A stretch of DNA of 64,000 bases from Aeoliella mucimassa (GTDB taxonomy: Bacteria; Planctomycetota; Planctomycetia; Pirellulales; Lacipirellulaceae). How positions within the stretch are numbered: position 1 is the stretch's first letter; the number at the start of each line of letters is the position of its first letter. A program made the translations under genes and the position numbers. Below are positions 44,151 to 56,103 of this stretch, piece by piece. The stretch covers positions 4,588,001 to 4,652,000 of the forward strand of contig NZ_CP036278.1 in NCBI RefSeq assembly GCF_007748035.1, in the 5' to 3' direction. Under the pieces are notes generated by a model that was not told the origin of the DNA, made no database searches, and was given only the letters and a program-made list of their open reading frames with translations.

Positions 44151-44564
44151 CTACTCTGTTATGCATCACGCTGTTGCTTTCCGCTCTTCTCAATAACACT
44201 GACAACCTGAAACGAAGACACTGCTGATCCTTCGCGAAGGTGTTAAGTTCACGCAAACAGACAGCTGCCAGGTGTGCGATTCATCGGGCTTTGCTTCCGA
44301 TTGCGATCTTAAAAACCTTTGCGTCTCGCTATAGCTACGCGAGTCGATCCCGAGTACCATCTTCGTAGCTTGCTAGCACCAGTCACGACGGCGAGATATT
44401 TGTGGGGTCGTGTAATGGCTTTATTCTCTTGAGTTTTAACTCACAAATCGGATAGCACGCTGAGCAGTACGCATCGCTTCCAACGATTCATCTTGTGATC
44501 GCACATCTGAATGAATCGACTCTTTTCGTAAACCTAACTCGCAAGTCGAACACTCCCAATGGAC
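44151..44564. other. Intergenic region before the CheB-CheR-kinase gene
   Basis: No gene seen. It contains a CCTTCGCGAAGG palindrome (about 44230-44241) and a CACGAC/GTCGTG pair (about 44386-44413), either of which might act in transcription end or control, but no T tract follows. A promoter for the next gene is expected here; no hexamer pair is clear. Confidence 0.4.
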
Positions 44565-44571
44565 AAAGGAG
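44565..44571 (+). promoter_or_regulatory. Ribosome binding site fixing the CheB-CheR-kinase start
   Basis: AAAGGAG lies eight bases before ATG 44580 and inside any longer frame from 44559, so it supports 44580 as the start. Confidence 0.75.
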
Positions 44572-44579
44572 CCCGATCC

Positions 44580-47500
44580 ATGACGGAAGGTGATCGACAA
44601 ATGCCCGAACCAACCCATGTGGTTGGCATCGGAGCTTCCGCGGGAGGTCTCGAAGCCATCCAAGGAATTTTTCAAAACATGCCAATCAACACAGGCATGT
44701 CGTTTGTCGTCGTGCAACACCTGTCTCCAGACTTCAACAGTCTGATGAGAGAAGTGCTTTCTCGTTGGACTTCCTTACCGGTACTAGAAGCCGAAAGTGG
44801 AATGCGACTCGCAGCAAACATTATCTACTTAATGCCTCCCAAGTCGGAAATTGTCGTCGTCGAAAGTTGCTTACTACTGAAGGAACGAGATCCACAAGCT
44901 CCTTTTTCACTACCGATCGATCACTTTTTCCGTTCACTTGCTCAGGACCTAGGCGGGCGATCGATCGCCGTTGTCCTCTCTGGCACTGGCTCGGATGGCT
45001 CACGGGGAGTCGTCGATATCCATACCGCTGGCGGACTTGTCATCGCTCAGAATGAAGAAACGGCCAAGTTCTTTGGCATGCCTCGTAGTGCGATCGAAAC
45101 GGGCGTGGTCGACTTTGCCCTAGCTCCTGAGGATATCCCTCTAGCGATCGAGCAGTACGCTGCCGACCCTCCCATCGCCGACATTACCGACTCGTTGCAC
45201 GCTGCAACTTCGGAGCAGCCGAACCTGCAGCATATCCTCACTCGTTTGCGAGACGCTTACGGGCTCGATTTTGGCTATTACAAACTAAGCACAGTAGTTC
45301 GTCGTGTCGAGCGGCGGATGCTAATGCAGGAACTCACTCACATTGCCGATTACATTGCCCATATCGACTCTCATCCCGATGAGCTTGAATTGCTCTATCG
45401 CGACCTATTGATAGGGGTCACTACTTTCTTTCGCGATCGACATGCGTACGAACAACTGGCTACCAAGGGCATACGCTCGCTCATCGACAATGCCGAAGAG
45501 AATAGCGAAGTAAGAGTTTGGGTTGCCGGCTGCGCGACTGGCGAGGAAGCGTACTCTCTGGCCATACTATTCAAAGAGCAACTGGCGCTCTACGAAAAGC
45601 AAGTTCGTATTCGTCTATTTGCCACCGATGTGAACCAAGAGTTCCTCGATACAGCCAGTGCTGGAATCTATTCAGAAGAATCTCTATCGGAGGTAATCCC
45701 TTCGCGGATTGAACTTTACTTCCGCCGCGACGCACGAGGATTTCGCGTTAGCCCCGAACTTCGCGAGTCTATAGTCTTCGCGCGTCACAATCTCACTAAG
45801 GACCCTCCTTTCACCAAGATCGATCTCATCTCTTGTCGCAACTTACTGATCTATTTGCAGCCTCATATACAAACCAAAATACTTTCTTTATTTCACTTTG
45901 GGCTTCGCACCAACGGACTTCTGTTTTTGGGGGCTAGTGAATCTACGAGCGAATTGTCCGATGAATTCGAAACACTCGATACGCATTGGAAGCTCTACGA
46001 GAAAAAACGGGATGTACGTATCGCCGCCGACAAACGCTGGCGGTCCATGACACCGAATCGAAGCACGCAACCAAACGGACTACCGTCTGTCAGCAACAAA
46101 ACAACTCCATTCAACGACCCCTTGCTACTAAGCACGTACGATGTGCTACTCGAATCAGTAATGCCCCCCTCCCTGTTGATTTCGGAGGAAGGTTCGTTGC
46201 TTCATACTTTTGGCGACGCTGGCAAGTACCTTCAAACAGAGCATGGGCGAACGACGATTGACGTTTATCAGCGACTCGTCGGCGACCTTCGCATCTCGGT
46301 CGCCGCGGCAGTGCGAAAGGCTTTGAACAGTGAATCCCAAGTTACCTACACTGGAGTTGCGGTAGATCAGAGTGACTCCCAGGAATTGCTCGACATCTCA
46401 GCTTTGCCGATCCGCGACAATCGGCGTGGCGTGCATGGAGTACTCGTTCAATTCCAGCCTTCTCATGCAGCACAACACTCCCCCTCTCCTGCAACACTTC
46501 GTTCCGACAACCTTTCGGCCGAACAAGTGCTCGCCCTGGAAACAGAACTTCGATTCACCAAGGAAAACCTTCAAGCGACCATTGAGGAACTCGAATCCAG
46601 CAACGAAGAACTGCAAGCAGCCAATGAAGAACTGGTCGCTTCGAACGAAGAACTGCAGAGCACTAACGAAGAACTCCATTCGGTGAACGAGGAACTGTAT
46701 ACGGTAAACGCAGAACACCAGTCGAAAATCACCGAGCTCTCCGAACTCACACGCGACATGGACAACCTGCTGCACAGCACCGAAGTGCATACGGTGTTTC
46801 TTGATTCCGAAATGCGCATTCGCAAATTTACACCGAAAGTTGCCGATACGTTTAGTTTTCTGCCGCAAGATGTAGGTCGTCGTATCGATACGTTCAGTCA
46901 CTCAATTGAAGTTGCCGAGTTGGCGGATCGCATTGAGCATGTGATTTGCACCGGCGAACCCTTTGAACAAGAAGTCCGCATTCGCGACAACGGCTGGTTC
47001 CTGCTGCGGATACTCCCTTATCTCGATCCGGAGGATGTCACCACCACGCGGCGCAGCGTATTGCTCACGCTGGTCGACATCACTTCTTTGCGTCAGGCAC
47101 TCGAAGAACTGGAACAGTCCGTCAAGCAGCGAGATCGTTTCCTGGCCATGTTGTCGCACGAACTTCGCAACCCCCTTTCTACCATATTAAACGCCACGCA
47201 TGTGCTCTGTTCTAGCAACGATGACTCTTCCAATGAGCATGCGGCAAAAGTCATTCAAAGGCAGTCGACCCACATGTCGACGTTGCTCGACGACTTGCTC
47301 GACGTATCGCGCGTTAGCCAGGGAAAAATCCAACTTCAAAAACATCCTTTCGAATTGCAGCATGCAGTAAAAGTGGCCGTCGAAGCGGTAACGACTCGCT
47401 ATCAAAAGCGAAGGCAGCAGATCCACACGCACTTGCCGACTTCCTCGGTGTGGATTCATGGTAGTGAACCTCGCATCCTGCAAGTGATCACCAATCTATT

Positions 47501-48215
47501 GACGAATGCCTCGAAATACTCCCCTTATGATTCCTTCATTGACCTGAGTATGGAGACCGAGGACAACGAGGTGATCGTGAGTGTCAGAGATCATGGGGTG
47601 GGAATTGCCAAGGAACATCTCGAGAAAGTGTTTGAACTATTTGAACAAGCGGATCGCACCTTGGATCGGGCGGATGGTGGGCTCGGGGTTGGTTTGACAT
47701 TAGTAAAATCACTGGTTGGCTTGCATGGTGGGAGTGTTGCTGTTACTAGCGATGGCGAGGGCAAAGGCAGTGTATTCTCGTTTCGCTTACCGACGTGTGA
47801 ACCCGATGAATCAGCGGAAGTCAACGAATGCGAACCACCAACCAACGCTGGTATCCAGAAGATTGTACTTGTGGAAGACAGCGTAGATGCCAGTCGTATG
47901 CTGGCTTTTCTACTCGAAGACGCGGGCTTCGAAGTCTCCACTGCCCCCAACGGCGAACAGGGACTCGAACTAATTAAGCAGAACCAACCCGAAGCAGCCA
48001 TCATTGATATCGGACTCCCTGGTTTAAGCGGTTATGATGTCGCCAAACGGCTTCGCGCCGACTCTTCTCATCACCAACCTTTCCTCGTCGCACTTACAGG
48101 CTATGGTCAGCCAGCCGATCGCACGAATGCACTTTCTGCGGGTTTTGACGAACATCTTGTCAAACCAGTTGATCCTGATTTATTAACGCGAATCCTCGGT
48201 GGTCGTCCCACCTAA
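44580..48215 (+). CDS. Hybrid CheB methylesterase-CheR methyltransferase-PAS-histidine kinase-receiver protein
   Basis: About 1,211 residues, no membrane helix seen. Order: CheB domain (about 10-195; GIGASAGG Ser, VVQHLSP His, [10 protein letters not shown] Asp), CheR domain (about 215-480; [19 protein letters not shown] site, [10 protein letters not shown]), a heptad-rich coiled coil (about 655-725, repeating SNEELQ/TNEELH units), a PAS-like domain (about 730-850), HisKA with phosphoacceptor His in [13 protein letters not shown] (about 865), HATPase ([23 protein letters not shown]) and a C-terminal receiver ([14 protein letters not shown] Asp, LTGYG, VKPVD). Such proteins occur outside classical chemotaxis loci and their output is unknown. 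The CsrA-REC gene follows after 298 bp and is the obvious candidate partner. Confidence 0.92.
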
Positions 48216-48503
48216 CGCAATATACTTAAACTGCCCACACAGAAACTCCGACCAAGATTTTCGGCAACCCGAAAAACGGTATTGACTATATTTGCGAGAT
48301 CGATTGTAGTTAGCTCCATAGTCGATCATTGCCTATGTATCTCCTTAAGTCGGTGGTCGCCGTTCCGCAGGATGCGGCAAACGGCTTGAGCACGGAAGAG
48401 TAAGCCTCCCGGCATATACTTTGTTGGTTCGTCATCGTCCTTTCACAGCTAAGAGCGTTGAGCCGACTTTCCGGGTAGGTATTCCATTCAGCTGCATCGA
48501 CAT
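48216..48503 (+). promoter_or_regulatory. Leader region of the CsrA-REC gene
   Basis: No gene seen. TTGACT at about 48282-48287 followed 17 bases later by TGTAGT is a weak sigma-70-like promoter candidate. The preceding TTTTCGGCAACCCGAAAA hairpin (about 48259-48276) might be a weak terminator of the kinase gene, but lacks a T tract. The hexamer match is modest. Confidence 0.35.
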
Positions 48504-48511
48504 GGAGAAGG
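48504..48511 (+). promoter_or_regulatory. Ribosome binding site deciding the CsrA-REC start
   Basis: GGAGAAGG ends two bases before ATG 48514, with GGAG six bases away. Since CsrA proteins start MLILSR or similar, this supports 48514 rather than 48502 or 48421. GGA is also the core of CsrA binding sites, so self-control is possible. Confidence 0.65.
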
Positions 48512-48513
48512 CC

Positions 48514-49311
48514 ATGCTTATTCTCTCGCGACAAAAGGACGAGAAGATCAGGTTTCCTGACCTGGGCATTTCTGTCCAAGTGATCGACATCCGTGGCTCT
48601 CGAGTGCGTCTGGGGGTGCATGCTCCTCTCGAAGTGCGTGTATTGCGGGACGAATTAAAGGACCACAAGAAAGGTGCCGGAAGCAAGCAAACTGTTTTTC
48701 GCATCCCCCAGGAGCTGCGGCATGAGATGCGAAATGCACTCAACGAAGTCATGCTGATGCTCCATGTCTATCAGACCAAGCAGGAAGCCTGCCTGGCGGC
48801 GAAGGACTCTTCGGCGAAACAATTGGATGCGAATCTGGCTTTCGAAACAATCATCGATAAACTCAAGCAGTTTGCTGCTCACGACTCTTTAACTTCAGGC
48901 AAGTCGGAACCGCCCCCACAAGCCATCCAGCCTGCGAATGGTTCGCGGATGCTGCTGGTGGAAGACAACGCCAACGAACGTGAGCTACTTGCCGGTTTTC
49001 TTCGTATCAGCGGTCAAACGGTCGCCACGGCGGCCGACGGCACCGAGGCCATTGAGTACCTGGAACGCGAAACTGCTCCCGATCTCATGCTAGTCGATAT
49101 GCTCATGCCGAGATGCGATGGGCGGACGCTCATCAAGCACTTGCGTTCCAAGCAACGCTTCGACGAAATGCAGATCTATGTCACGAGTGGACGCTCGGCT
49201 AGCGAGGCGGGACTCGACCAGGAACAGCATCGCTTGAACGGTTGGTTCCTGAAACCGCTCGATCCTAAATTGCTGGCAGAAACTCTGATCGTTCAGAGTC
49301 GTAACGCCTAG
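48514..49311 (+). CDS. CsrA RNA-binding domain fused to a response-regulator receiver domain
   Basis: 265 residues. Residues 1-50 are a CsrA domain: MLILSRQKDEKI, VQVIDIRGSRVRLGVHAP, EVRVLRDEL. Arg6 and Arg45 match the RNA-contact residues known for CsrA (Arg6 and Arg44 in E. coli numbering). A helical linker (about 55-125) and a Pro-rich hinge lead to a complete receiver (about 144-262) with Glu150/Asp151, phosphoacceptor Asp195 (LMLVDMLMP), Thr224 (IYVTSG) and Lys247 (FLKPLD). CsrA works as a dimer that binds GGA motifs in mRNA leaders. The fusion suggests that phosphorylation controls RNA binding or dimer state. The upstream hybrid kinase is the likely phosphodonor. Both domains look functional. 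Confidence 0.92.
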   Translation: MLILSRQKDEKIRFPDLGISVQVIDIRGSRVRLGVHAPLEVRVLRDELKDHKKGAGSKQTVFRIPQELRHEMRNALNEVMLMLHVYQTKQEACLAAKDSSAKQLDANLAFETIIDKLKQFAAHDSLTSGKSEPPPQAIQPANGSRMLLVEDNANERELLAGFLRISGQTVATAADGTEAIEYLERETAPDLMLVDMLMPRCDGRTLIKHLRSKQRFDEMQIYVTSGRSASEAGLDQEQHRLNGWFLKPLDPKLLAETLIVQSRNA

Positions 49312-49349: not shown

Positions 49350-50195
49350 GTCGTGTTGACATTTATGTAGCGTAGATTTTGTCGAAATGGTATCACGGTG
49401 TCGTCCCCTACCTGCTCATGGAGGAGCGAATAGATGCGACGGCACGAACTGACAGACGAACAATGGTTGAAGATTCGAGGCCATTTGCCTGGCAAATCCG
49501 GCGATCCCGGTCGAACCGCGGCGAGCAATCGTCGGTTCGTGAACGCGGTGTTGTGGATCGCCCGCACAGGCGCGCCGTGGCGCGATCTTCCCACTCGCTT
49601 TGGCCCTTGGAATTCGGTATTTCAGCGTTTCAATCGATGGTGCAAGCGTGGCGTCTGGCGGCAAGTCTTGGAGACTCTGGGCGAAGAGCCCGACTTGGAG
49701 CACTTGCTACTCGACTCGACAACGGTCCGAGCCCATCAACACGCAGCGGGCGTAAAAGGGGGCTCGGTGGCGAAGCCATGGGCCGCTCGCGCGGAGGTTG
49801 GGGAACGAAAGTCCACGCCGCGGTAACGGGCGATGGCCGCCCGGTTCGTCTGACTTTGACGGGTGGCAACCGACACGACATGCACCAAGCAGAAACGCTG
49901 CTGGAAGGACTAACTCCCGAATACGTCGTCGCCGACAAAGGGTATGATTGCCATTGGTTTCGCGATCAGATTCGTCGCCAAGGCGCGAAGCCGGTGATTC
50001 CGACTCGCCGTGGGTTTCGACAGAAAAGGTACGATCGCACACGCTATAAACTCCGAAATGTCGTGGAGCGGTTCTTCAACCGGTTAAAACACTACCGTAG
50101 GGTCGCTACACGATACGATAAAACTGATCGAAACTACGATGGATTCCTCTGCCTGGCGTCACTCATGATCAGCTTGGCATGAATGTCAACACGAC
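49350..50195 (+). mobile_element. IS5-family insertion sequence, 846 bp
   Basis: Inverted ends both start GTCGTGTTGACATT read inward (49350-49363 and 50182-50195) and stay similar for about 18 bases. CTAG flanks both sides (49346-49349 and 50196-50199), giving a four-base target duplication; an equivalent reading is TA duplication at a CTAG site. The small size, the DDE motifs and a transposase in two frames suit the IS427-like group of IS5. It sits between two convergent genes and breaks neither. Confidence 0.92.
49434..50182 (+). CDS. IS5-family transposase in two frames, probable -1 frameshift
   Basis: Frame one (49434-49826) begins after GGAGGAG (49420-49426) and encodes LTDEQWLKIRGHLP, APWRDLPTRFGPWNSVF and LLLDSTTVRAH (first Asp). 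The -1 frame, ending at 50182, encodes GRSRGGWGTKVHAAV, EYVVADKGYDC (second Asp) and LRNVVERFFNRLKHYRR (Glu). They join near A AAA GGG (49754-49760), so a product of about 249 residues is expected if the ribosome slips there. The heptamer is less ideal than that of the IS630 element, since the second codon slips onto AGG; a one-base mutation in the element is the alternative. Confidence 0.82.
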
Positions 50196-50230: not shown

Positions 50231-51970
50231 TTATGGCTCTTCTTCAGCTGCTTGCTCATCCGCGGCGTAGATGAACTCCAGGTCTGTTCCATCGAGACCT
50301 AATGCGGCTGTGTAATCGGCCAGGGCTGTAAAGAACTCTAATTGCGACTCCACGAGTCCGCCGGCCGCTTCGGCTTGCTGCTGCTCTCGCAGGTTCAGAT
50401 TGAATAGGGTGCTCTGCCCTTCTTCGTAAAGGCGCTGTTCCGCCTCTCGCATTCTTGCTGCCAGCTCCAAGGCTTCACTATTCTGCTCCACCCGTTCGGC
50501 CGCAGCGACCAGTGCTGCCCGGGCGATTTGCACCTCGGTGGCGATTTTCTCTTCTGCAAACTGCAGCTTCGAACGGAATTGAGCGAACTTGCCGCGCAGT
50601 TGCCGCACTTTTCCCAGAGCCTTGCGGCGCTCGAGGGGAACGGAAACCGTGAGCGTGGCTTCGAGTTCCGTCTCCGACTTATCTCGCGACTTGGTGGCCG
50701 CTCCGATGTCCTGCCCCACGAACACGCCGGCGTCGATGTCGGCTCGCGTTTCGTTGAGTGCTTGCTGGTAGGCGACCGACAACTGCCGACGCACCACTTG
50801 CAACTCCTGCAGTTCAGGGCGGTTGTCCTGGGCCATCTGCACATCGGCATCAAAGGTTAGCTCATTAGGTGTGTCGACTTTTGGGAACCCTAGCCGCAGC
50901 GCCGGGTCATCGTACACCACCGGCGTGCCGCTGCTATCACGCAGGAATAGCGACAGCTTGTACCCAGCCTGGGCGAGCTTTCGGCGGGCGAGCGTGACTT
51001 TCGACTCCCGCGACACAATAATACGGCGATTGTCGACGATATCGATTTCCGCCTTCTCGCCTTCTTCAACCTGACGCTTCAAGTATTTCGCTCGGTCGAT
51101 ACCGAGCTGCAACACATCCTCGGCAATGCGAAGGTTTTCTCCGGCTGCGATCCAAGTCCAGTAGGAGTGCATGCCGTCGCGAATGGCCATTAGCAGCTGG
51201 GCCTGAATAAAAGGCTCTACGCGGTTGCGTTCGAGCTGGGCTCGCCATAGCTCGGCCCGATTCGCGTCGATCGCCCAGTCGCGACCGATCGGAGCGGTGA
51301 GCGAAACACCAAACTCGCCGAGGTCGTTTGTTTCCCGTTCCTTGTACCACGGCTCAAACGATCCGCGACCGAGCTTGTAACCCGCGGCGACTTGCCCGCC
51401 CCACATCGTATCGCGTTTGACTCCCCACTTGTGCCAGTTGTTCTCGTAATAGTCCATCGGCTGCGCATTGCTGTAGCCGTCGAGCTTATGATCGAACGCC
51501 CCGCTGGCCGACAGCGCCTCGCCCGAGGCGATCACGCGACTCGCTTCGGCTTGTTGCACCAAAGGGAAATGATTACGAACCGAGCGAATCACCGCAATGG
51601 CTGCGGGCGCTGCTGGAGGACCAAGTTCCACCACTTCGGGCGACTCCAGCTCGGTGGGCTCTTCCACCGTCAAATCAGGCTCCTGCGAATCTAATTCCAT
51701 CGGTTCTGGCAACGCGACCGGAATCGGTTCCGCGTTCACGACATCCTCGCCGTCGGTGGTCGACTCGTCGACCACCAGCGAAGCCGGTGTCACCAACTGG
51801 TTGGGTATCTCCGGGTTGCTGCCTTGCGTCTTTTGAAGGGTAGTTGGCTGAGATGTGGTTGCTAGCGACTTCGACACACTTGGCACAAACAAGTTGCGCG
51901 TGCTGCTGCAACCGACTGCTAGTGTCAGCAGTAGCGCGATGTAGGTCAGCTTTTCGATACGGTGATTCAA
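50231..51970 (-). CDS. TolC-family outer membrane lipoprotein (efflux channel)
   Basis: 579 residues. The signal ends LAVGC (Cys about 21), a lipobox. A low-complexity acidic stretch (about 30-125) precedes two helical OEP repeats (about 135-350 and 370-570) with long alanine/glutamate-rich helices, e.g. ALVAAAERVEQNSEALELA. Such proteins form the outer membrane duct of tripartite exporters. It is the last gene of the leftward set after HlyD-like and ABC genes, although 528 bp separate it from the HlyD-like gene, so it may have its own promoter. Confidence 0.85.
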   Translation of the reverse strand: MNHRIEKLTYIALLLTLAVGCSSTRNLFVPSVSKSLATTSQPTTLQKTQGSNPEIPNQLVTPASLVVDESTTDGEDVVNAEPIPVALPEPMELDSQEPDLTVEEPTELESPEVVELGPPAAPAAIAVIRSVRNHFPLVQQAEASRVIASGEALSASGAFDHKLDGYSNAQPMDYYENNWHKWGVKRDTMWGGQVAAGYKLGRGSFEPWYKERETNDLGEFGVSLTAPIGRDWAIDANRAELWRAQLERNRVEPFIQAQLLMAIRDGMHSYWTWIAAGENLRIAEDVLQLGIDRAKYLKRQVEEGEKAEIDIVDNRRIIVSRESKVTLARRKLAQAGYKLSLFLRDSSGTPVVYDDPALRLGFPKVDTPNELTFDADVQMAQDNRPELQELQVVRRQLSVAYQQALNETRADIDAGVFVGQDIGAATKSRDKSETELEATLTVSVPLERRKALGKVRQLRGKFAQFRSKLQFAEEKIATEVQIARAALVAAAERVEQNSEALELAARMREAEQRLYEEGQSTLFNLNLREQQQAEAAGGLVESQLEFFTALADYTAALGLDGTDLEFIYAADEQAAEEEP

Positions 51971-52498
51971 GTGTAATGCCCCACTGCTAGCACGCCGGTC
52001 CCCGAGTCCATCGTTAAAGAGGGCCTATCCGATACTATCGGTAGCCTAGATGCCCGAAAGTCACCAAAGTTTGACCAATCGGTAAACTTCCAAGCCGGCA
52101 CGAAACGGGACACGCACGCACGTTTATTTTGCCCCCAAAATCCCCAAATCGATTCGTGGGGGCAATTCTTACGTCGCGGCCCATCGCAATAACTCCTTTC
52201 CAGTTCTGAAGTTGTGACAATCGCTATCGACGTAACTCATTTCAATTGCCTCCAGGGTGGGGGCACAACAAAAAACCAGTGAACATAACGGTGCGGAATC
52301 ACGCCAGCCTCACAGGCAAAGCATGTTCATCCGAACACCTACTATTAGACCAAGTAGGGGCAGAGATTCAACCATTATTTTTGGCCACTTTGCCGCCAGC
52401 AGAACGACTGGAGCGTTGGCAAAGTTCCTATTCAGGCTACTTCTTCAGAACCGCGGGACGAACGGCCACCACGCAAGAACATAGCCATGCCACTTACC
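51971..52498. other. 528-bp gap between HlyD-like and TolC-like genes
   Basis: No supported gene; an 87-residue plus-strand frame at 52246 lacks domain features and runs into the HlyD-like gene. A 9-bp inverted repeat TTGCCCCCA/TGGGGGCAA (52129-52137 with 52157-52165) could be a transcript end or a regulatory stem, but no clear T tract follows on either strand. A promoter for the TolC-like gene is expected to its left. Confidence 0.4.
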
Positions 52499-53950
52499 CT
52501 AGATTTTGATCTTGGGGGCCTTCGGCTTTTCGGCGGCTTCCTTCGATTTTAGCGAAGGGGGGAATCCGTTCATGCGACGCCAAACCTCATAGCCCAGTGG
52601 CACCTTATCGAGAAGCACCCACCCGTTGGCTCGCACCCCCTGACGGAGATAGGGATACTTGGGCCACGGCTCATCCTCGGGATCAGGCAGAATAACGACA
52701 CGGAACTTACCCATTCCATCGTCGGTGGCATCAACCAAGGCCACCTCGCCACCGAAGGTTCCCACGGCCACCGAGGGCCACCCCGAGAACTGCACTGCTG
52801 GCCAGCCTTCGAATTGCAAACGCACCTTGCGTCCAGGCGTGATGAGCGGCGCGTCGTTACCCGCGACCCACACCTGCACTGCCGGTTGTTCGGTCCGTGG
52901 TACGATACGACAGAGTTGATCGCCAGGCTTTACGATCGAGGCTGTATCAAACACCGTGAGATTCATGATATATCCATCGCGCGGAGCGACTACTTCTTGC
53001 GTGCGTTGCACGGCCACCTTGCGTTCCTGGTCGAGAAGCTTCGAACGCTTCTGATTGATTTCTTCATTGGTCTTGTTGATATCGATCTCGGCTTTGGCGA
53101 CTTCGGCCCGCGACTTCTCGAGTTGCGAGAGCACCTTGTTGATCTTGGCTTGCCACTCTTGTCGCTTGGCTTCGCGTTCGTTCTTCTTGCCAGCGACCCC
53201 GTTGGTAGCGTTCTCGACCTCTTGCTCGGCCACTTTCACGTAGGCCATCGCATCGCGGTATTTCTGCTCGGCTTCCTGCTGCTTGAGTTGCGATTCGATC
53301 CCATCGTTAAACAGGGCGGTCTTCCGTTTGTAGTCGGCCTCGGCCTGAGCCAGCTTGGCCTGGGCGGCCACCAGCTTGTTGCGTTCGGCCTCGAGTTTAT
53401 TGACGGACTGATCGACGAAGTTATCGTACGCTTCCACCAGTTCATCGCGAGCAGTTCGCATGGCCAAAAGCTCTTCGGTGGTAACATCCACGATCCGCAG
53501 ATTGTTGTCGCGCAATTCCCGGGCGCGTTCCAGGCGATCTTCCGCTACGGTCACTTCGGTTTGAGCGTTGACCAGCTGTTGTTCGAGTCGCGAGAGGTAC
53601 AACGGATCCTGATCCTCGATGCGGAAGAGCAATTGCCCTTTGGTCACGTAGGCATTCTCCTGCACGCCTTCTCCACGCTCGGCAATCCGTCCCTTGATGG
53701 GAGCTTGCACCGGTTGCGGGCGTTCGAACGGGTCGAAGGCGATCACTTCGCCGTTGCCGCGGATCGATTGCTGCCAGGGTGCGAGCAACATGACGCCCAT
53801 CAGAATGAACATCATGGTGAGTAGCACGCGGCCTAAACGCCGGACAAACCGCGCAGCCCGTGCTAGTCGCAGAGCGGGAAAAGCCTGCTCGTCGTAGGCG
53901 GCGTCGCTGAACACGCGTTTCTTGGCGACTTTATTAGCAAGAGTACTCAT
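52499..53950 (-). CDS. HlyD-family membrane fusion protein
   Basis: 483 residues. One membrane helix (about 42-60) follows a basic cytosolic end. Two half-lipoyl motifs (QAPIKGRIAERGEGVQENAY about 85-104, and EVVAPRDGYIMNLTVFDTA in the second half) flank a long coiled-coil hairpin (about 115-320, rich in Lys/Glu/Ala/Gln). The C-terminal beta-barrel ends in a basic KAPKIKI tail. It links the ABC transporter to the outer membrane channel. It starts 17 bases after the ABC stop, so the two genes are co-transcribed. Substrate unknown. Confidence 0.9.
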   Translation of the reverse strand: MSTLANKVAKKRVFSDAAYDEQAFPALRLARAARFVRRLGRVLLTMMFILMGVMLLAPWQQSIRGNGEVIAFDPFERPQPVQAPIKGRIAERGEGVQENAYVTKGQLLFRIEDQDPLYLSRLEQQLVNAQTEVTVAEDRLERARELRDNNLRIVDVTTEELLAMRTARDELVEAYDNFVDQSVNKLEAERNKLVAAQAKLAQAEADYKRKTALFNDGIESQLKQQEAEQKYRDAMAYVKVAEQEVENATNGVAGKKNEREAKRQEWQAKINKVLSQLEKSRAEVAKAEIDINKTNEEINQKRSKLLDQERKVAVQRTQEVVAPRDGYIMNLTVFDTASIVKPGDQLCRIVPRTEQPAVQVWVAGNDAPLITPGRKVRLQFEGWPAVQFSGWPSVAVGTFGGEVALVDATDDGMGKFRVVILPDPEDEPWPKYPYLRQGVRANGWVLLDKVPLGYEVWRRMNGFPPSLKSKEAAEKPKAPKIKI

Positions 53951-53967
53951 GGTAGGCTCCCTGAAAA

Positions 53968-56103
53968 TCAGGCAATCGCTTTCGTGGCGTGAAGTTGTAG
54001 TCGACGATCAAACTGGGCTGCAATCTCGGGCCGGCTAGTCATGACCACCACGGTCCAGTTGGCCGCAGGCGATAGCAGCAGATCGATCGCCTGCGAGAGT
54101 TGCTCGTCGGGCAATGCGTCGAGCAATCCATCGACAATCAGCAGTTGAGGATTTCCGGAGATCGCCCGAGCGAGCATGAGCAACTTCTGCTGCACCGACG
54201 ATAGGGGCCGCCCGTTCGGTAGCAGATGGGTCTCCAGACCATCGGGCAACTTGTAGACACTCTCGAGCAGCCCGGTTGACTCAAGTACCTTATGTGCCTG
54301 GTTAACGGTAACGCCGGGCCTTCCGAGATGTAGGTTCTCAAGAATACTGGCCTCGAACAATTCGACCTCACCAGCCACCGCGACCACCGAGCGAAGCACG
54401 TCGGGACGCAGGTCGCGAGGTTCGCACCCTTTGATCTCCACCCGACCAGCGGCTGGCGATTCGAGTCCATACAGCATGCGTGCCAAAGTCGACTTGCCGC
54501 TGCCGGCTGCGCCAAGAATCGCGACTCGCTCGCCGGCGGCTATCTTGCCCGTTAGCGAGTGCTGAACGAGGAAGTCGCCCGCGTTGCCCCGCACCGAGTG
54601 AAACGCAACAGGCAAACCATGTTCGGTGTTCAGCGTGTCGACGATGCCCGAGTGACGCTCGACAGGCAGGTCGAACAGGACACCGAGCTTATCGACTGCG
54701 GCCACCAGGTCGTAGAATCCTTCGAGGTGCTTTCCAAGCTTGGCGAGCGAAGAAAGTATGGTAGTGACAATCAGCTCGGCCGCGACGAGTTGCCCCAGTG
54801 ATAGTTGCCCTTGAATCACCAGCCAGCCACCGACGCCGAGCAGAATGGTGCCTGCGACCGCCTGCAATCCGAGGGTGAACACGATTTGGCGGAACAGAAT
54901 GCTAAAGTGCGCTTGCCGAATCTTCAGGTACTGCGAAGTCAAACGATTCGCTCGATCGAACGCGTACTCGGCCCCTCCGTCGGACTTGAATCCGGTAGGA
55001 CAGCGAATCACGTCCTCGAACCAGGCGGTTAGTTTGTACTTGAGTTTCGACTCGTCGATTCCGGAGGCAATCGCCCCGCGACCGAGCACTACCAGCCCCA
55101 CGCCGACGATGATGATCAGCAGGAAATCAAAGCCCAAAAGCCATGGATGATAGAAGGCAAGCACCGCCATGCCGACGAGGGTAGCCAGCACGATGCTCAC
55201 CCCATCAAGCAGCAAGTTAGCAACTACTTTTTGCAGCGTGACGACATCGAGGAAGCGATTGACCAACTCGGGCCCGTAGTACTTGCCGTGCGTGGCTCCT
55301 TCGACTCGCGGCAAGCGATACGCCAAGTCGGCTGCGACGCGGGCGAAGAGTCGCCGTTGGATGATTTCGGCCACGTAGGTCTGCATGGCCTTCATCATCG
55401 CGGCAAATGCGAGAAAGCCGAACAGCAGGATTGCCAGTACCAGCACTGGTTGTAGCAACCGGCCAAAGGCAACCGTATTCACGAGTGCTTCGACACCAAT
55501 AGGGGTCGCCAGATTCAACACCCCCGCTACGGTGGCGAACACCAAAATCATCCAAATATCAGGCCACTCCGGACGCACGATGCGGAGCAACCGACGAATC
55601 GGACGATGCTTCAGTTCGCGAGCGCTATCGACATTGGATAGCTCGGGATGCTCGACCACCACCCAATGGGCGACTTCGCCATGCGCACCCGCTTCGTCCA
55701 CGAGTTGCTCGAACTGCGGCTTCGGCGTGAATCGCGAACCTTCGAACGGGCCTTCGGCCAGATAAATACCCTTGCTGTTCCCTCCGACGATCACCTGCAG
55801 ACCATGTGAGTCGGTAAATCCCCCCGCCAGCTTGGCTCCGTCGGTCGCGAGTTCTGCGATTTGATCGGTCGTAACTTCCAGAGTCTGAGCGCGTAGCGCA
55901 AGGCTGTTGCAGCACTCGACGAGCCACTTCCCCCACATCTGACGCGGCTCTCCCGGCCAGGCGGTTTGCACTTCGCTGAGTAATTGCTCGGCCCGCAACA
56001 ACTCGATGTCGACACCACACTCGCGACAGATGCGAACGAGCGTAGCGGAGAGCTTGGTCTTGGGTGAAGCTTCGAGTAAAGACGTCATGGTCGATGCGAT
56101 CAA
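53968..56103 (-). CDS. Type I secretion-like ABC transporter with a degenerate ATPase domain
   Basis: 711 residues. The N-terminal 155 residues resemble the cytosolic C39-like region of HlyB-type exporters but without a protease triad that I can see. About six membrane helices follow (about 180-480). In the nucleotide-binding domain, Walker A is intact (GAAGSGKST, 531-539). The Q-loop has Gly578 in place of Gln, the signature reads LSSVQ (634-638) rather than LSGGQ, Walker B reads LLIVDGLLD with Gly659 at the catalytic Glu, and the switch His is Ser690. ATP binding seems possible but hydrolysis is doubtful. A divergent family or a non-transport role is possible. HTH gene upstream, HlyD-like gene downstream. 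Confidence 0.88.
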   Translation of the reverse strand: MIASTMTSLLEASPKTKLSATLVRICRECGVDIELLRAEQLLSEVQTAWPGEPRQMWGKWLVECCNSLALRAQTLEVTTDQIAELATDGAKLAGGFTDSHGLQVIVGGNSKGIYLAEGPFEGSRFTPKPQFEQLVDEAGAHGEVAHWVVVEHPELSNVDSARELKHRPIRRLLRIVRPEWPDIWMILVFATVAGVLNLATPIGVEALVNTVAFGRLLQPVLVLAILLFGFLAFAAMMKAMQTYVAEIIQRRLFARVAADLAYRLPRVEGATHGKYYGPELVNRFLDVVTLQKVVANLLLDGVSIVLATLVGMAVLAFYHPWLLGFDFLLIIIVGVGLVVLGRGAIASGIDESKLKYKLTAWFEDVIRCPTGFKSDGGAEYAFDRANRLTSQYLKIRQAHFSILFRQIVFTLGLQAVAGTILLGVGGWLVIQGQLSLGQLVAAELIVTTILSSLAKLGKHLEGFYDLVAAVDKLGVLFDLPVERHSGIVDTLNTEHGLPVAFHSVRGNAGDFLVQHSLTGKIAAGERVAILGAAGSGKSTLARMLYGLESPAAGRVEIKGCEPRDLRPDVLRSVVAVAGEVELFEASILENLHLGRPGVTVNQAHKVLESTGLLESVYKLPDGLETHLLPNGRPLSSVQQKLLMLARAISGNPQLLIVDGLLDALPDEQLSQAIDLLLSPAANWTVVVMTSRPEIAAQFDRRLQLHATKAIA

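Follow-up and report, generated by a model that had tools for sequence, protein, structure and literature searches.

A planctomycete CsrA protein with a DHp-like histidine hairpin and a receiver domain is a candidate mRNA-binding response regulator

In a 64,000-nucleotide stretch of the Aeoliella mucimassa genome (contig NZ_CP036278.1, positions 4,588,001 to 4,652,000; hereafter the window), one gene encodes a protein in which an N-terminal CsrA RNA-binding domain is joined to a complete receiver by a conserved hairpin related to the DHp domain of histidine kinases (Table 1). We consider it possible, at a little short of an even chance, that this protein works as a response regulator whose output domain is CsrA and which contains its own histidine module, fed by a hybrid kinase through His70 to Asp195. 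The sequence-only reading had proposed that the protein places mRNA binding under two-component control, and this proposal is supported at the level of anatomy by intact CsrA and receiver residues, by a kinase gene adjacent in 26 of 32 loci and by hairpins in the leaders of relatives.

Table 1 Features of the CsrA fusion gene and its surroundings (window positions)
Feature	Coordinates	Strand	Remarks
Hybrid histidine kinase, CheB-CheR-PAS-HisKA-HATPase-REC	44559..48215	+	1218 aa; 298 bp upstream of fusion, same strand
Leader hairpin of the window copy (predicted)	48501..48516	+	Covers ribosome-binding site and start codon; 5 pairs, GGA in stem
CDS, CsrA - DHp-like histidine hairpin - receiver	48514..49311	+	265 aa, uninterrupted ORF
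CsrA RNA-binding domain, residues 1-51	48514..48666	+	PF02599, 53.1 bits (cut-off 27); Arg6 and Arg45 kept
DHp (HisKA)-like hairpin, helices 66-95 and 100-121	48709..48876	+	AlphaFold2; profile match 96.8%; sub-threshold HisKA matches
His70 codon, H-box histidine	48721..48723	+	73/78 members; 55/60 clusters; in register with kinase H-box His
Asn74 codon, H+4 of H-box	48733..48735	+	67/78 members; 52/60 clusters
Receiver (REC), residues 147-257	48952..49284	+	PF00072 Response_reg, 67.4 bits (cut-off 30.2)
Asp195 codon, phospho-acceptor	49096..49098	+	Asp in 78/78 aligned members
Ser225 codon, receiver conserved Ser/Thr (switch residue)	49186..49188	+	Ser 66/78, Thr 12/78
Lys247 codon	49252..49254	+	Lys in 78/78 aligned members

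Both terminal domains exceed their Pfam cut-offs, confirming the earlier identification of CsrA and a complete receiver in a single ORF. The protein scores 45.5 bits against NCBIfam TIGR00202, the equivalog model for stand-alone CsrA, below the cut-off of 70.1, and thus it carries a CsrA domain rather than being a canonical CsrA protein. The start at 48514 matches the N terminus of the family (MLVLSR...); an in-frame ATG at 48502 would lengthen the protein by four residues. Because many other genomes hold near-full-length relatives, an assembly artefact can be dismissed as the source of the fusion.

Residues characteristic of both domains are retained across an alignment of 78 family sequences. 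Arg6 is present in 77 and Arg45 in 76 of these, and the set of RNA-contact positions L4, R6 and R45 is kept in 75 when position 4 is scored as kept for L, I, V or M. We take these positions to be the counterparts of Leu4, R6 and R44 of E. coli CsrA, in which R7 is presumably also an RNA-contact arginine. The claim that the RNA-contact arginines are present therefore holds for R6 and R45 and fails for the counterpart of E. coli R7, which is Gln in the window protein. In the receiver, Asp151, Asp195 and Lys247 are each found in all 78 sequences, and the complete residue set (acidic pair, phospho-Asp, Ser/Thr and Lys) is present in every member. Of the phosphorylation residues named previously, Asp195 and Lys247 are thus borne out, and Thr224 was a misreading of the switch residue: position 224 is Val in 56 sequences, Ile in 11, Met in 5, Leu in 3 and Thr in 3, and the conserved Ser/Thr is the adjacent Ser225.

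The search for CsrA-Response_reg architectures that had been suggested was run, and it uncovered a family of such fusions, mostly planctomycete. With the window protein as query, matches at E≤1e-20 were found in 23 of 97 genomes, its own counted; in 21 of the 96 other genomes the match runs from residue 1-2 to at least residue 254 (its own genome and G057, matched in the receiver only, are left out). A genome-contig scan with alignment A1, which rests on a single receiver-derived pattern, placed the best 80 of 81 relatives at 79 loci. Among the matches listed, these comprise 74 family members (L054-L127), of which L116 and L119 match without the N terminus, and five receiver-only matches (L128-L132). 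Planctomycetes account for 72 of the 74 members listed, including Blastopirellula marina, Rhodopirellula europaea, Gimesia, Thalassoglobus, Gemmatales and Isosphaeraceae, and the other two (L061, L117) are titled only 'bacterium'. A phylum search with A1 found relatives in at least 16 of 392 genomes, a lower bound because only six candidates were scored per genome. Pfam matches both CsrA and the receiver in all 73 members of alignment A2, and additionally matches PDE8A_N in 10 of them (best E 0.0022). Eleven viral stretches fit the search pattern and none encoded a relative; plasmids yielded no relative at 1e-15.

The A. mucimassa genome itself has eight CsrA-domain places, two of which are fusions; the other six are found in short ORFs (78-151 aa). 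One plain CsrA gene, beside FliW (G000:C1:4689502-4690323; L002, L143), coexists with the fusions. The second CsrA-hairpin-receiver gene (L139:7770-8546, minus strand) stands amid genes whose products, judged by eye, resemble a Ser/Thr kinase, an FHA protein and one receiver-diguanylate-cyclase-like protein, with no HisKA place nearby.

The stretch between the two terminal domains (residues 51-143), which the sequence-only reading left undescribed, is mostly a conserved DHp-like histidine hairpin. Its most conserved part is a motif H-x-x-R-N-x-L, with His70 in 73, Arg73 in 59, Asn74 in 67 and Leu76 in 70 of the 78 members (the clusters given in Table 1 are 60 groups at 70% identity). An AlphaFold2 model computed on the 73 sequences of A2 (mean pLDDT 87, pTM 0.52) contains two long helices at residues 66-95 and 100-121, with block-mean pLDDT values of 90-95 for residues 71-120 and 74 for residues 61-70. 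Segments 54-60 and 130-138 are flexible (pLDDT <50), and given these the predicted model has no obvious rigid path from the receiver to CsrA.

That the middle domain is DHp-related is the conclusion we draw from a comparison of profiles, the register of the H-box, sub-threshold HisKA matches and the predicted helical hairpin. A profile of the middle domain from the 78 sequences aligns with a kinase DHp profile, in which the window kinase is combined with 52 matches among neighbouring kinases, with a score of 46.5 and a probability of 96.8, and the H-box histidines fall in register. As controls, 100 column shuffles scored no higher than 15.8 and the reversed profile scored 9.5. Pfam HisKA (PF00512, cut-off 26.9 bits) gives matches below its cut-off in three of eight linkers (window 14.8, L013 19.6 and L020 13.3) and reaches the cut-off in none of the eight linkers tested; it also matches 14 of the 73 A2 members at E≤1, with a best value of 5e-4. 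The window match starts at residue 68, corresponding to profile position 9, and an ungapped alignment would set His70 at position 11, the place of His867 in the window kinase.

Searching the window's genome with A3, a middle-domain profile from 55 sequences, gave six places at E≤0.1. These are the two fusions, two true HisKA kinases (E 1.5e-4 and 0.033) and two places outside the HisKA list, namely a secreted-looking protein (E 0.0156), which ranks above the second true kinase, and one more (E 0.094). Against solved structures, the middle-domain profile produced 22 weak matches at E≤10, the best being an alpha solenoid protein (0.072), with sporulation kinase B seventh (E=1.0, over the H-box), a match that is not evidence by itself. 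The top 50 Foldseek matches of the whole model are almost all receiver domains, and this comparison is consequently silent on the hairpin.

The likeness to HisKA (PF00512) is one of profile-level relationship with His70 in register, and several features differ. The fusion remains below the Pfam cut-off, the H-box Pro is absent from all 78 members, and the acidic residue that follows the H-box His is kept in only 29 of the 73 His-bearing members and missing in 44. With the acid mostly missing and Pro found in no member, His70 might be something other than a regular phospho-acceptor. Pfam detects no HATPase in the window protein, nor does one appear for the 73 A2 members among the 25 families listed of 58. 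Another parallel is offered by Spo0B and ChpT, which are separate proteins that form DHp-like dimer hairpins with an H-box His, lack a working kinase and carry a degenerate ATPase-like domain. The fusion likewise has a DHp-like hairpin with an H-box His and no kinase, and phosphotransfer by its His70 is putative; unlike in those proteins, the hairpin is joined to CsrA and a receiver.

Family genes are commonly found near kinase genes. We sampled 55 non-redundant loci, 32 of which have 5 kb on both sides, and scored kinase linkage from tblastn matches to the window kinase at E≤1e-6. By this measure, 26 of the 32 full-flank loci have a kinase domain no farther than 5 kb away and 23 have one no farther than 2.5 kb away, with all four relative orientations of neighbour kinase and fusion occurring; none was found within 5 kb in the other six (L077, L078, L083, L097, L109 and L121). 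Chance linkage would be about 3.5%, an estimate based on one genome of 6.6 Mb with 23 HisKA places, and richer genomes would raise the figure. In 24 of the 32 loci a same-strand receiver comes after the kinase, and a CheR match occurs within 6 kb in 18. In the window's genome the six plain CsrA places and the paralogous fusion have no HisKA place closer than 5 kb, and CheB is found in two places, only one of which, the gene upstream of the fusion, is in a long hybrid frame. On this genomic arrangement, the CheB-CheR hybrid kinase is likely the cognate kinase of the fusion.

On the downstream side, a DDE transposase gene follows directly (49379-50182, plus strand); judged by eye, the N-terminal portion of this gene runs on in a different frame (49434-49826), an arrangement known from certain IS elements. 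Farther on, TolC-like, HlyD-like and ABC-transporter genes lie in a row (50231-56103, minus strand) that by eye resembles a type I export system.

The favoured model would operate as a His-Asp-His-Asp relay. The CheB-CheR-PAS hybrid kinase would autophosphorylate and pass phosphate on to its own receiver, from which His70 would take the phosphate and give it to Asp195. The hairpin would form a dimeric bundle that displays His70 without a kinase ATPase, the CsrA domain would dimerise and bind GGA hairpins overlapping ribosome-binding sites, and the state of the receiver would alter the hold of the CsrA dimer on mRNA. His70 is assigned the part of phosphate taker because the hybrid kinase has no HPt domain; the window's genome has five HPt places, none of them near the fusion locus. 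In relatives, the gene's own leader would be one target. Dimerisation, the phosphate route, the direction of the effect and the identity of the CsrA protein that binds the leader are all points that we infer.

A simpler route, which we judge somewhat unlikely, is that the kinase phosphorylates Asp195 directly and that the hairpin is no phosphate carrier, serving instead as a dimeriser and as an intramolecular dock or phosphatase, with Asn74 as the H+4 residue. HisKA proteins require the acid to act as kinases and the H+4 Asn/Thr to act as phosphatases, and the family retains Asn74 in 67 of 78 members and the acid beside His70 in only 29 of 73; a confidently predicted hairpin tethered by flexible linkers also suits this route. 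However, the near-invariance of His70 (55 of 60 clusters) exceeds what docking would need, and the neighbouring kinases mostly bring their own receiver (24 of 32 loci) with no HPt near the window locus. Relay and direct phosphorylation alike leave mRNA binding under two-component control.

This would not be so if the receiver instead steers protein partners or stability, as in RssB and single-domain receivers, with RNA binding by CsrA either constitutive or lost. The disordered stretch that joins the middle domain and the receiver in the AlphaFold2 model is compatible with such a role, and RssB, the RpoS regulator, is the solved structure that the receiver matches best in sequence. We nevertheless consider this improbable, since 75 of 78 members retain the RNA-contact residues and the leaders of the family hold CsrA-type hairpins.

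The leader evidence derives from the sequences upstream of 58 non-redundant family genes, of which 53 carry a GGA at -22 to -6. Taking the GGA nearest -12 as the anchor, and a register picked after seeing the sequences in which ANGGAN forms the loop, the first three stem positions are Watson-Crick in 45, 79 and 74% of leaders, and a one-base slide lowers pairing. The observed 105 of 159 paired cells exceed all of 2,000 permutations of the right flank (mean 69, maximum 85), and contiguous stems of at least three pairs in 23 of 53 leaders (permuted mean 15.1) were matched once in the 2,000. Stem pairs 4 to 6 outward give no signal in the 53 leaders. At least two of the three pairs form in 41 of 53 family leaders versus 30 of 188 other genes from the same loci; because the start codons of this background are uncertain, a control was added in which both sets carry ANGGA, and the difference persists (39 of 48 versus 16 of 72, Fisher p 1.7e-10).

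Alignment A4, with 49 of the 53 leaders, has 62.8% of cells paired versus 52.0% after shuffling (sd 2.2) and a covariation score of 0.310 versus 0.163 (sd 0.026), with slid structures at or below 0.132; relatedness survives the shuffles, and it is also present in the slid controls, which in turn favour a structure drawn from these very sequences. Further pair types in A4 (13) were reached by 70 of 500 shuffles and double-side changes (4 pairs) by 321 of 500. Nine chosen leaders were folded. The GGA hairpin formed in four of them (L107 and L126, and with an eight-base loop also L074 and L114), and the remaining five (L118, L087, L109, L120 and L105) took a different fold. The window leader has its own predicted hairpin (Table 1), and the canonical ANGGAN-loop hairpin of relatives was not found there. 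A -24/-12 scan of 73 leaders for sigma-54 promoters, an idea prompted by the accessible part of PMC12316311, scored about the same as its reverse-complement and shuffled controls, and this candidate was rejected.

An ANGGAN hairpin over a ribosome-binding site is the textbook CsrA/RsmE site. Together, these comparisons support the view that family leaders hold a predicted CsrA-type target over the ribosome-binding site, A(N)GGA in a hairpin being described as a CsrA-type site in the part of PMC10729762 available to us. In these leaders, and in the key arginine and hydrophobic residues of the fusion, the family resembles CsrA/RsmA (PF02599), from which it departs by the added DHp-like hairpin and receiver. 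The leader hairpin is a feature of the family, which is not the same as proof of binding by the fusion protein. It could be bound by the plain CsrA proteins of the cell, making the fusion more a CsrA target than a CsrA. The six short CsrA frames among the eight CsrA places, one beside FliW, would supply such proteins, but this leaves the kept RNA-contact residues of the fusion unexplained, and we consider it very unlikely.

Some members lack the proposed phosphate carrier. His70 is missing in five of the 78 aligned sequences (L076, L104, L108, L115 and L116) and also in L035, and for five of these six copies a His-bearing sister is present in the same genome (L104/L122, L115/L124, L108/L111, L076, which is gene L033, with L017, and L035/L013). 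In K23_9, L104 and L122 flank a run of CheB-CheR genes. The pairing of His-less with His-bearing copies, as read from these genomes, fits a division of labour. It enters a wider picture that we put forward tentatively and would sooner expect to need revision than to stand whole: a planctomycete phosphorelay ending on mRNA rather than DNA, in which a hybrid kinase would feed a phosphotransfer His and a receiver within one CsrA dimer that in many relatives would also repress its own translation via a GGA hairpin, and in which His-less copies, mostly from genomes that also have a His-bearing sister, may form two-protein relays.

Among known systems, ANTAR response regulators also combine a receiver with an RNA-binding domain, which is C-terminal and acts on terminators; in the fusion, by contrast, CsrA is N-terminal and a histidine hairpin lies in between. 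We know of no experiment on a CsrA-hairpin-receiver protein. E. coli CsrA is a short protein with no receiver. For this reason, an entry in a table of a 2025 review (PMC12471899) that places E. coli CsrA among the orphan response regulators looks like an error. The pairing of CsrA with a receiver is already known, since the catalogued output domains of response regulators include CsrA (Galperin 2006, cited in the accessible part of PMC2222644); the likeness of the fusion to that class is one of domain pair by name, as compared by class name only. The suggestion that this route of regulation is undescribed accordingly does not hold for the domain pair; for the histidine hairpin, the kinase linkage and the leader hairpin, no report was found in the literature searched. 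That literature, which misses most subscription papers, contains no title or abstract on a CsrA-hairpin-receiver protein, and no such protein appears in the accessible parts of PMC7366521, PMC10729762, PMC4682653, PMC12471899 and PMC12316311, or by a term search of PMC7652899.

If CsrA, the phosphotransfer-like His and the receiver work together, a sensor kinase would set translation directly in the several planctomycete lineages in which the fusion is present. This would contrast with ordinary CsrA proteins of about 60-70 aa, whose activity is usually controlled indirectly, through sponge RNAs or through FliW. Given the linked kinase and the leader hairpin found in relatives, one kinase, one protein and one RNA would make up a ready in vitro system.
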